DNA from: a bacterium
Lineage (GTDB): Bacteria > Verrucomicrobiota > Kiritimatiellia > CAIKKV01 > CAITUY01
DNA: 64,000 bases
Direction: 5' to 3'
Assembly: GCA_037143175.1 (NCBI GenBank)
Contig: JBAWZF010000003.1
Location: 62,001 to 126,000 of the forward strand
A program made the position numbers and the translations under genes. Below are positions 30,703 through 54,794 of this stretch, piece after piece (the first letter of the stretch is position 1; every line of letters begins with the position of its first letter). Below the pieces are notes generated by a model, which saw nothing but the letters and a program-made list of their open reading frames with translations, did not search any database and was not told the DNA's origin.

Positions 30703-31072
30703 CATTCGGTATGCCTCAAAATGACCCGGATTGACTGGTGTTGACGTAAGAGTATTGGATGACTGTGTTCTTCTCCGCGGCAAACGAAACGGATGTCCTC
30801 CACTCCGATATACGCCATCGCATCCAATCGAGCCCAGGTCGTTGGCGTTGAATAAACCGCTCCCATCACCGTGACCGTAGCACTCCGACTGACGCACACC
30901 GGTTGAGCAAGCCGTGGATCAAATGACTGGATTGGCACCAGATCCTTCCCTGCCACCACCGGAGTCAGGTGTTGCCTCGCCCTTCTACCCCTCCCTGGTC
31001 GTGGCCTTCACCGGGTCGTGCAAAACAAGGCTCATAAAGATAGTGACTGCTCAAGGCCTTGAACCGATCAGC
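30700..31072 (-). pseudogene. IS21-family transposase (IstA) fragment
   Basis: Two frames on the minus strand together give an IstA-like C-terminal stretch. FKALSSHYLYEPCFARPGEGHD and GGVEGRG match the IstA block F.A..HY.F.P..ARPG...KG.VE. A downstream frame continues VVAGKDLVPI, SRSATVTVMG and YSTPTTWARLDA. A stop/frameshift lies near 30970. No istB and no IS ends are visible. It begins exactly where a receiver-domain gene on the same strand is cut off. Confidence 0.5.
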
Positions 31073-31229
31073 AATGTAAAGAATTGAAACACCCGTGACT
31101 CTTATACAGGGGGCACTCAACAGGGTCTTCATAGATGTGAACCTCATAATTCCTGCGTTGCAAAATACATCGCAAATAGATCAACACAGTAGGATCATCG
31201 TCAATTACAATGGCTTTTATGGTCTTCAT
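31068..31229 (-). pseudogene. Truncated stand-alone receiver (response regulator) gene
   Basis: ATG at 31229 opens a 53-codon frame: MKTIKAIVIDDDPTVL, then LQRRNYEV, YEDPVECPLYKSHGC. The first 40 residues match the receiver genes at 33853 and 36714, including the acidic DDDP pocket and the CP.Y motif. After residue 46 the similarity stops at the IS21 fragment, so the phosphorylation site and the rest are missing. Confidence 0.65.
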
Positions 31230-32277: not shown

Positions 32278-32466
32278 ATGCTCTGCCCCCCCCCTTTGAA
32301 CAAATCGCAAACTTTTTCTTAAATGCGTTTATTATTATACCATTGTGCGGTAACCCACGCAATCGTCCAAATTCCTCTCAATTTCCGCATCACAAAATGG
32401 TTATTATCACCGACATTATAATTTCACGGTAAATCAGGGATTTCCTGATAGCCGCAAATTGCGGTT

Positions 32467-32600
32467 TATACTATTCTGTCCAAGTCAACGAGTGAGGTGG
32501 TGAGGTCAGCAATGATACCGAACCCCCCTTTGGTGATGTCTTGGCTATTCCTCCGCAAGCTATAGTGAGAGCATCCCACCACCTCCCGTTGATTTTTATG
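32467..32600 (+). ncRNA. Putative structured RNA, copy A (promoter-like box included)
   Basis: Copy A aligns over about 130 bp with copy B at 33130-33266. TATACT (32467-32472) is a -10 candidate; transcription would start near 32479. Closing stem P1 pairs GTCAACG (32484-32490) with CGTTGAT (32587-32593) and GAGGTGGTG (32494-32502) with CACCACCTC (32577-32585). P2 is ACCGAA/TTTGGT around CCCCCC (32517-32534). P3 is CTAT/ATAG around a loop containing TCCTCCGCAAG (32546-32565). T residues follow P1, as at an intrinsic terminator. I do not recognise the family. It lies upstream of a truncated receiver gene. Confidence 0.6.
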
Positions 32601-32629
32601 ATTGAAAACACGAGGGATCGACGAGGACT

Positions 32630-32761
32630 ATGAAGGTTATAACAATTGATGATGATCCACTGGTTCTGTTTACGTTGAGTGGAATGTTTTACCGGAGAGG
32701 TTATGATGTCTTAACCTATGAAAATCCGCTCTCTTGTCCCACCTATTTGAAGCATTACTAA
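32630..32761 (+). pseudogene. Truncated receiver gene downstream of RNA copy A
   Basis: The 43-codon frame begins MKVITIDDDPLVLFTL, then FYRRGYDVLTYENPLSCPTYLKHY. It matches the first 40 residues of the full receiver gene at 33853. The frame ends before the phosphorylation site and the KGCRC segment. GAGGA precedes the ATG. Its stop overlaps the next ATG as TAATG. Confidence 0.65.
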
Positions 32762-32958
32762 TGAGTGGACAAGAGCAATGGGCTAAAGAATATGGCAGAA
32801 AAGCTGTTTCAGGATTACTGATTGGCTTTGGAATATTGTTCATGGTATTGACGCAGCTAATATTTACAAAATTGTCAAAATTCGGATTCGTTCTCAGTAT
32901 TTGCTTTATTGCAACCGGAGCTGTCATCATGTTTAAAACTCCGTCTCCTAAGCGGTAA
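32761..32958 (+). CDS. Small two-helix membrane protein
   Basis: The 65-residue product has a short charged N-terminus (MSGQEQWAKEYGRKA) and two hydrophobic helices: VSGLLIGFGILFMVLTQLIF and FGFVLSICFIATGAVIMF. It ends in a basic tail. No family is recognised. TAATG overlap with the truncated receiver frame suggests coupled translation, so the pair may still be expressed. Confidence 0.5.
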   Translation: MSGQEQWAKEYGRKAVSGLLIGFGILFMVLTQLIFTKLSKFGFVLSICFIATGAVIMFKTPSPKR

Positions 32959-33129
32959 AGGGTGTGTTAGGGTTAGTTTTGACAGTAGCCGTAATCCGTT
33001 CATTGAATTGCTATCAGGTGACGAGGCTGGCTTCCGTATTGAACACCACAGCGAATCAACTTTTTTCCTGACGCTTCATTTGCCGCCGTCATTCCCTTAC
33101 ACAATCCTAACTTGTGAAAAATTGGGGCA

Positions 33130-33266
33130 TATATTAATCTGTCTTAGTCAATGAGAGAGGTGGCGGGTCTCCCCCGATATCACAGACCCCCTGTGATAGA
33201 TGAAGTTAGCTGTTCCTCCGCAAGTTATAGACAAAGCATCCCTGCCACCTCCCGTTGATTTTACAA
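33130..33266 (+). ncRNA. Putative structured RNA, copy B (promoter-like box included)
   Basis: This is the second copy of the element at 32467. TATATT (33130-33135) aligns with the copy A box. P1 pairs GTCAATG (33147-33153) with CGTTGAT (33253-33259) and GAGGTGGC (33157-33164) with GCCACCTC (33244-33251). At one P1 position T-A in copy A becomes C-G here, a compensatory change. P2 is TATCACAG/CTGTGATA around ACCCC (33178-33198). P3 is CTGT/ATAG with the same TCCTCCGCAAG loop. Downstream lies the STAS-like gene, whose ribosome-binding site is AAGGAGG. Confidence 0.6.
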
Positions 33267-33433
33267 TTACCCTTGGGCGACCGTTGACCAGCCATCCTAA
33301 CAAGGGTAGGGCAAAGGCGTTGATCGTTAAAATTCCGCTATCAGGAATTTCCCGACCCTGTTTTCAGTGTCCCCCTGATGGCGTAAGTTCCAAATATTCC
33401 ATTTAATGGCTCTCCTTGATTCAAGGAGGTCTG

Positions 33434-33829
33434 ATGTCTTTTGCATACAAAATATTAAAATCGGGTGAGCATGTGAGGATTGTCGTCAGTGGCAAGATCA
33501 CCCAAAAGGAATGCAAGATGGTGATCAAACGTGTCATGTCCGATCCCCACCGTCATTCCGGCTCAACGGCTCTTATTGACCTGCGGGATGCCACCTATGA
33601 ACGTGGGGATAAGGCGGAGGTAATAGATATCGCCAAGGCATTGGAGACGTTCCACTCCCTGCTTAAAAACCATATCGCCATCGTAGCCATGCGATCCACC
33701 CTTTTTTACGCTGAGATTTTCGCTGCTCATGTCAGGGCGGCAACGCATGCTGGGATCAGGGTTTTCGTGGATATTTCCGCCGCTGAGTCGTTTTGTAAGC
33801 ATCCAAATCAGGCCAGTCACGCACATTGA
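33434..33829 (+). CDS. Small STAS/SpoIIAA-like protein
   Basis: The 131-residue protein resembles SpoIIAA-like (STAS-type) proteins: IVVSGKITQKECKMVIKRVMSDP, then ALIDLRDATYE, then a C-terminal AGIRVFVDISAAESF. There is a strong AAGGAGG ribosome-binding site 7 nt before ATG 33434. It lies between RNA copy B and the receiver gene, which starts 23 bp downstream. The pair may form a signalling unit; that is inference. Confidence 0.6.
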   Translation: MSFAYKILKSGEHVRIVVSGKITQKECKMVIKRVMSDPHRHSGSTALIDLRDATYERGDKAEVIDIAKALETFHSLLKNHIAIVAMRSTLFYAEIFAAHVRAATHAGIRVFVDISAAESFCKHPNQASHAH

Positions 33830-33852: not shown

Positions 33853-34242
33853 ATGAAAATTGTTTTAGTAGATGATGATCCAACAGTATTAACAATGTTG
33901 AGTAAGATTCTTCAACGCAAAGGGCATGAAGTCTTAACCTACAGTAATCCGCTTGAATGTCCTGTGTATGCATCGGCGTTAGGCTCCTGCACCCTTGAAG
34001 ACAATTGCCCCGACATTATTATTTCAGATGTTGATATGCCCAAAGTGAACGGGTTGAAGTTTATTGAGGCGATTTGCAAAAAGGGGTGTAGGTGCAAAAA
34101 ATTAGCCCTGATCTCCGGCAAAGGACTGGATCGTGCGGATTTGGATCGAATGGCCAATTATGGAATAAGCTTTTTTACAAAACCCCTCAACTTCAATGAG
34201 TTTAATGCATGGATGATGGGGGCAGATCGACTTCTCGCTTGA
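33853..34242 (+). CDS. Stand-alone receiver-domain protein with cysteine motif, copy 1
   Basis: The 129-residue protein is a CheY-like receiver without an output domain. It has the acidic pocket VDDDP near 4-8, phosphorylation site DVDMP, a conserved SGKG and FFTKPL lysine. Unusual cysteines occur at NPLECPVY, LGSCTLEDNCPD and KKGCRCKKL, all shared with the gene at 36714. Two other family members nearby are truncated. A specific partner kinase is not evident; the hybrid kinase at 26497 has its own receiver. Confidence 0.82.
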   Translation: MKIVLVDDDPTVLTMLSKILQRKGHEVLTYSNPLECPVYASALGSCTLEDNCPDIIISDVDMPKVNGLKFIEAICKKGCRCKKLALISGKGLDRADLDRMANYGISFFTKPLNFNEFNAWMMGADRLLA

Positions 34243-36588: not shown

Positions 36589-36713
36589 TCGGCGTATTAT
36601 TAAGAAATAGATCGAAAAGAACCCCTCAATTGCTCATCCAGTTCCAATAGGTTTTCATTAGTTCTTTGGTCATACTATCCTGAGGGGAAGATGTTGTAAG
36701 GTTGATGATAAGG

Positions 36714-37130
36714 ATGAAAACTCTGAAAGCCATGGTTATTGATGATGATCCTGGTGTATTGCACTATTTGCGGTACATTTTGGAGCGTAGAGGGTATGAG
36801 GTGCTCGCCTTTGAAGATTCCTCAAAGTCTCCTCTGCATAAGCGTGGTGGGCGTCCTTGTCAGATGCATGATTCTGAATGTCCTGATCTGATTATTACTG
36901 ACCTAATAATGCCCCGGGTGAATGGGGTGGATTTATTGGAGTCCGTTGTGAAAAAAGGATGTCGCTGTCGTCATCTCGCCTTGGTTTCTGGAACTGCGAT
37001 CACTGAAAAGGATTCGAGGCGGATGGCGAAATATGGGGCGCGTTTTTTTTCAAAGCCTCTTGATCTTAGTGATTTTTATAACTGGCTTGAGATGGTTGAG
37101 AAAGAGATTGCTGGACGCCCTTCTGTTTAA
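36714..37130 (+). CDS. Stand-alone receiver-domain protein with cysteine motif, copy 2
   Basis: The 138-residue CheY-like protein has VIDDDPGVL, phosphorylation site TDLIMP, SGTAI and FFSKPL. It shares C-x-CPD and KKGCRCRHLALVSG with the gene at 33853. ATG 36714 is chosen because the relatives start with MKT/MKI; 36705 is an alternative. It lies outside the tRNA-bounded element, so the family is not confined to that element. Confidence 0.8.
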   Translation: MKTLKAMVIDDDPGVLHYLRYILERRGYEVLAFEDSSKSPLHKRGGRPCQMHDSECPDLIITDLIMPRVNGVDLLESVVKKGCRCRHLALVSGTAITEKDSRRMAKYGARFFSKPLDLSDFYNWLEMVEKEIAGRPSV

Positions 37131-54553: not shown

Positions 54554-54794
54554 GGCGAATAAAGTGCATGTATTTGAACATTTGCACAATCGGGGTAACC
54601 CTGATTATGTATCAGGGAATTGCTCATAGCGGCAGAGAGGTGGAGCCGACGTCCCGGCGGTTGCATTTGGCGGCAAGAAAGAAAATGCGTTCACCGGGGA
54701 CGTCGATCGCCACCTTGAGGGATCTGACATGCGTTAGATTGAAAAAAAACGAATCTGAAATTCGCTTGTCTTTCTGTTCCAAGGTTACTACACT

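Follow-up and report, generated by a model that had tools for sequence, protein, structure and literature searches.

The 64,000-nucleotide stretch analysed here (the window; Verrucomicrobiota, Kiritimatiellia, contig JBAWZF010000003.1, positions 62,001 to 126,000) carries two copies, A and B, of a structured RNA element on its forward strand. A first-pass annotation had placed them at 32467-32600 and 33130-33266 and had described a shared promoter-like -10 box and a T-run ending each copy, and direct reading found the copies and both features as described. The spans do contain the copies, but the RNA proper most likely starts at the first base of P1, the long closing stem, with the promoter lying upstream; RNA limits were taken from that base to the T-run (Table 1). 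Each copy forms a three-way junction of P1, a P2 hairpin with a C-rich loop and a P3 arm, and ends in the T-run. As set out below, A and B are members of a real and previously uncatalogued small-RNA family in an uncultured bacterial family.

Table 1. Coordinates of the RNA copies and associated sites in the window
Feature	Position	Strand	Basis
RNA copy A: three-way junction of P1, P2 (C loop) and P3 (CCUCC loop), T-run end	32484..32597	+	folding, cmsearch
Copy A, P2 hairpin, loop CCCCCC at 32523-32528	32517..32534	+	folding, family alignment
Copy A, P3 arm exposing TTCCTCCGCAAG at 32548-32559	32535..32575	+	folding, family alignment
Copy A, -10-like box TATACT	32467..32472	+	column-conserved nATnAT about 17 bp after TTGCG in operator-bearing copies
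Single ATCAG-N7-CTGAT palindrome ahead of copy A (tandem pair at most copies)	32433..32449	+	same columns relative to P1 in 14 other copies
RNA copy B: same three-way junction as A, T-run end	33147..33262	+	folding, cmsearch
Copy B, P2 hairpin TATCACAG-ACCCC-CTGTGATA	33178..33198	+	folding
Copy B, P3 arm exposing TTCCTCCGCAAG at 33213-33224	33199..33240	+	folding, family alignment
Copy B, -10-like box TATATT, without upstream palindrome	33130..33135	+	direct read, promoter alignment
Tandem palindrome ATGAGCAATTCCCTGAT-ACATA-ATCAGGGTTACCCCGAT, arranged exactly as in the RNA operators and lying upstream of the gene for a 78-aa membrane protein	54589..54627	-	tandem-site search

The fold of copy A reached -44.7 kcal/mol (z -4.8) and that of copy B -43.5 kcal/mol (z -5.2), and for neither did any of 200 dinucleotide shuffles fold as well. 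Searching the genome that contains the window (G000; 107 contigs, 3.3 Mb) with blastn located the element in six places, namely A, B, C3:8144, C17:53666, C27:30735 and C28:36006; with four further copies in the same genome, A and B are no two-copy coincidence. The covariance model R1, built from these six copies and therefore including A and B as training sequences, scored A at 98.7 bits and B at 121.3 bits in cmsearch. Applied to 58 genomes (the window's own and relatives), R1 returned 18 copies in nine genomes, with six in the window's genome, four in one relative and one or two in each of the others. Within the window's taxonomic family (nine genomes, four genera) every genome carries the RNA, and R1 found no copy in any of the 58 genomes outside that family. 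A second model, R2, built from all 18 copies, was run on 337 further genomes of the class without any new copy. When the order was searched more deeply, no match beyond the family had an E-value under 0.7, and the remainder of an evenly drawn sample of 388 genomes from the phylum was also without a match; these broad searches score only about 10 candidates per genome, so remote relatives may be missed. No copy was found in the plasmids, phages and viral contigs searched, and a minus-strand reading of the element was set aside, as it produced weak mirror matches only (best 26 bits). The motif TTCCTCCGCAAG by itself gave 35 matches against 32 for its reversed control. Since it is not enriched, the case rests on the whole structure, and a covariance model is needed to recognize the family.

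The annotation had been unable to assign the element to a known class. This was upheld by comparison with Rfam (Rfam 15, 4227 families), in which no copy from the window or its relatives matched at gathering or permissive (E<=5-10) thresholds; the only matches obtained at either threshold were tRNA and chance matches.

The three-way-junction structure of the family is strongly supported. Across the 18 aligned copies 92.8% of cells were paired, compared with 31-58% in slid-pairing controls, and double changes occurred at 20 of 33 pairs (51 double-change cells), compared with 0-8 pairs in the slid controls. None of 500 shuffles reached any of the covariation or pairing measures of this alignment, which was fitted to the covariance model and hence leans towards structure. 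As an independent check, all copies were folded singly and gave the same P1/P2/P3 plan, with z from -3.6 to -8.2. Pair-preserving changes in further homologues, which the annotation had proposed as the sign of a family, are thus documented by 18 copies in nine genomes. P1 pairs GTCAACG with CGTTGAC and GAGGTGG with CCACCTC to give a long, terminator-like closing stem. The P2 loop reads CCCCCC, UCCCCC, CCCCC, CCCC, ACCCC or CCCACC in 18/18 copies, on a stem that varies with compensation (97.6% of P2 cells paired across the family). The P2 arms of A and B had been described as completely different; they have GATA at the 5' base in common, but their remainder does vary with compensation. P3 has the stem GATG..CATC; most copies carry UUCCUCCGCAAG on it, and the remaining ones have variants. 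That the C loops hardly change while their stems do points to selection on the loop sequence.

A sigma-70-like promoter, TTGCG-17-nATnAT with a spacing of about 17 bp, stands at fixed columns in 15 of the 18 copies, and the same 15 have an ATCAG-N7-CTGAT palindrome upstream at an identical distance to P1. At most copies two palindromes are arranged in tandem with an N5 gap and end in the TTG of the TTGCG-like -35 box; copy A retains one of the two sites. The -10 boxes of B and C28 are more consensus-like. P1 is followed by a T-run of at least three in 17 of the 18 copies. The conserved promoter and T-run make transcription of the RNA likely, and in the simplest reading each copy would be a stand-alone RNA of about 115 nt. 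We considered the palindrome as a terminator of the upstream gene and rejected this, since its distance to P1 is kept even at loci with a divergent gene upstream (G7, G8 and G0C3b) and it also precedes protein genes with a start codon 35 nt after the site. An integron attC site was dismissed by inspection, as the element end (GTTGATT or GTTGACT) does not match GTTRRRY.

The genes beside the RNA differ between paralogous loci and agree between orthologous loci. The RNA follows a phosphofructokinase (PFK) gene in G0, G4 and G3 and an aminotransferase gene in G0 and G4, precedes an ABC-F gene in G3 and G5 and an HTH-EIIA protein gene in G0, and lies near the gene for enzyme I of the phosphotransferase system (ptsI) in G6, G7 and G8. 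For PFK, aminotransferase, enzyme I and EIIA a single member of each group was checked against Pfam, and ABC-F was assigned by inspection. A link of the RNA to sugar-phosphotransfer genes is at most suggestive. A convergent tRNA gene follows copy C27 (the tRNA was seen at L044), and opposite-strand open reading frames (ORFs) follow the G1 and G2 copies. Together, the neighbours that differ between paralogous and agree between orthologous loci, and the convergent and tRNA genes, argue for action in trans and against both a riboswitch and a recent mobile repeat.

If the element were a cis-acting leader (riboswitch or attenuator), P1 would be a conditional terminator for the gene downstream. This would suit C28, G4C44 and G4C34b, which lie close upstream of a codirectional small predicted membrane-protein gene, as well as C3b, 81 bp before HTH-EIIA, and G7, 128 bp before ptsI. 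However, the copies are not consistently upstream of related same-strand genes: downstream genes are unrelated between loci, and C27, G1 and G2 are followed by the convergent tRNA gene or opposite-strand ORFs. P1 is intact in every minimum-free-energy structure, where antiterminator pairings were not searched systematically, and the conserved loops are C-runs, not a complex ligand pocket. We consider a leader quite unlikely. A non-autonomous mobile element with inverted ends, of the miniature inverted-repeat transposable element (MITE) or repetitive extragenic palindromic (REP)-like kind, is highly improbable. Six dispersed copies with inverted terminal arms, with A and B 663 bp apart, resemble such an element, for which target-site duplications were looked for by eye, but orthologous positions are common to species (PFK in three genomes, aminotransferase in two, ABC-F in two, ptsI in three), promoter and operator stand at a fixed distance, and the loops are conserved. 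Presence in 9/9 genomes, mostly as a single copy, and the lack of plasmid or phage matches also speak against mobility.

Copy B is followed in the window by a gene for a 137-aa protein without a Pfam match (33416-33829). A relative lies behind an RNA copy in G004 (C44). A further homologue comes from a public lake bin (L037), where the 5 kb to each side of it are free of the RNA. A small predicted membrane ORF (MIIVGGCLFIVGSFLTIVPMI...) lies directly downstream of three RNA copies of one sub-type (L060, L057 and L059).

We favour, at a probability of about 0.7, a trans-acting, Hfq-independent small RNA (sRNA) that blocks G-rich or GGAGG ribosome-binding regions and has its own promoter, usually a tandem operator, and a terminator made of P1 and the T-run. 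Each copy would be its own sRNA gene of about 115 nt, with the sigma-70-like promoter and usually the tandem ATCAG-N7-CTGAT operator upstream, and the long stem P1 with the T-run would act as a Rho-independent terminator. The three-way junction would present two open loops, C5-C6 on P2 and, in most copies, UUCCUCCGCAAG on P3, and these may pair in trans with mRNAs at ribosome-binding regions that are G-rich or contain GGAGG, repressing translation without Hfq. Near-invariant C loops together with published C-loop analogues point to an antisense repressor, and the predicted pairing with ribosome-binding sites draws on the same conserved loop sequence and analogous RNAs. Neither Hfq (PF17209) nor CsrA (PF02599) was detected in any of the nine family genomes, in searches whose positive controls worked; the former agrees with the Hfq-independence of C-loop antisense sRNAs. 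The annotation had drawn attention to an AAGGAGG ahead of the gene that follows copy B; this is a canonical ribosome-binding site and in itself no evidence of targeting.

The RNA is a new family that would work like known C-loop sRNAs, with a different fold and no detectable homology to them. In the account given in PMC12395582, which cites Mai et al. 2019, the C-rich hairpin loops of 6C RNA pair with mRNAs independently of a chaperone. B11 sRNA likewise pairs, independently of Hfq, with G-rich sequences close to start codons; it does this via a C-rich loop in its terminator, with mutational support, and mycobacteria are without Hfq and ProQ (PMC12395582). The family described here shares C-rich apical loops with these actinobacterial RNAs, the P2 C-run loop in 18/18 copies being evidence of a like way of working only; its copies do not match the Rfam covariance model of 6C, and the host lineage is different. 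The 6C architecture is one of separate hairpins, whereas here the C loops are not on two independent hairpins: P2 and P3, which carry them, are arms of a single three-way junction enclosed by P1. The sX13 RNA of Xanthomonas is 115 nt long and Hfq-independent, and its C-rich apical loops (one UCCCCCU) act on G-rich motifs near starts (PMC3771888), and the description in the same paper has the C-rich loops of Helicobacter pylori HPnc5490 (UCCCCCU) and Staphylococcus RNAIII regulating mRNAs with G-rich motifs. The present RNA resembles sX13 in size and C-rich loops, but has its 5' end locked in P1 and no detected sequence relation; with HPnc5490 and RNAIII it shares the C-rich loop, with no homology detected. 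Those two RNAs differ from it in size and fold.

The loops could alternatively bind a protein and not mRNA, as in a 6S-like RNA or a decoy that sequesters a regulator. A highly structured, standalone, multicopy RNA with a seemingly regulated promoter and at least one copy conserved in every genome of the taxonomic family would fit this role. The GacA-controlled RsmX/Y/Z are likewise multicopy sRNAs with a palindromic activator site upstream of their promoters, but the palindrome here differs. Rsm RNAs sequester CsrA through GGA loops, whereas here the loops are C-rich without GGA motifs, and CsrA is among the proteins undetected in the nine genomes. There is also no long 6S-like bubble helix, and C-runs are typical of antisense loops (PMC3771888). 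A protein-binding role thus appears rather unlikely.

Several observations weigh against the antisense sRNA. No mRNA target was identified. The CCUCC of P3 is lost or altered in G2, G4C44, G3C132, G5 and C28, leaving only the P2 C loop near-universal; the palindromes are missing at B, C28 and G2, and the T-run is weak in G5, G6, G7 and G3C132. Among the window's 43 crude gene calls, G-runs near starts are rare (1/43), but Shine-Dalgarno-like motifs are common (29/43), which suggests that the P2 C loop is the specific element and the CCUCC loop the broad one.

Allowing 3 mismatches at most, the tandem site was found 27 times, in seven of the nine genomes, whereas the reversed control pattern gave no match. 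Ten of these sites are located at RNA copies. In G0, G2, G3, G4, G5, G7 and G8 the site lies ahead of a gene for a small membrane protein of 75-87 aa with a signal-like N-terminus and an AHP motif; in five of the seven genomes the start codon of this gene lies exactly 35 nt after the site. Other sites precede response-regulator genes and further membrane or sensor genes. The window's own such site (Table 1) is probably a further target of whatever factor acts at the RNA promoters. One candidate for this factor is the NarL-type regulator that adjoins the site at G000:C88. As the operator is common to the RNA, the small membrane-protein gene and response-regulator genes, the RNA belongs to a regulon. 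More tentatively, the RNA may be the non-coding arm of a lineage-specific global regulon, in which one factor at tandem ATCAG-N7-CTGAT sites on the -35 edge would drive the sRNA, the 75-87 aa membrane protein and several response-regulator genes, while the sRNA would repress mRNAs via its anti-Shine-Dalgarno loops in bacteria without Hfq.

Short stand-alone response-regulator genes or fragments cluster around the window's RNA copies (31068-31229, 32630-32761, 33853-34242 and 36702-37130), and the genes at 33853 and 36702 match Response_reg. Relatives of these short response regulators (L093 and L104) sit behind the same operator. In three genomes (L089, L101 and L102) a response regulator-GAF-GGDEF gene is divergent from the small membrane-protein gene across the operator; L089 was tested in Pfam, and L101 and L102 are homologous to it.

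The RNA family is well supported and missing from Rfam, and its hosts are an uncultured lineage whose genomes yielded no match to Hfq or CsrA. Through the conserved operator that it shares with particular protein genes, the physiology of the RNA can be tested. C-loop RNAs recurring independently in a further lineage would support repeatedly evolved chaperone-free regulation, in which a C loop is set against a G-rich ribosome-binding site.
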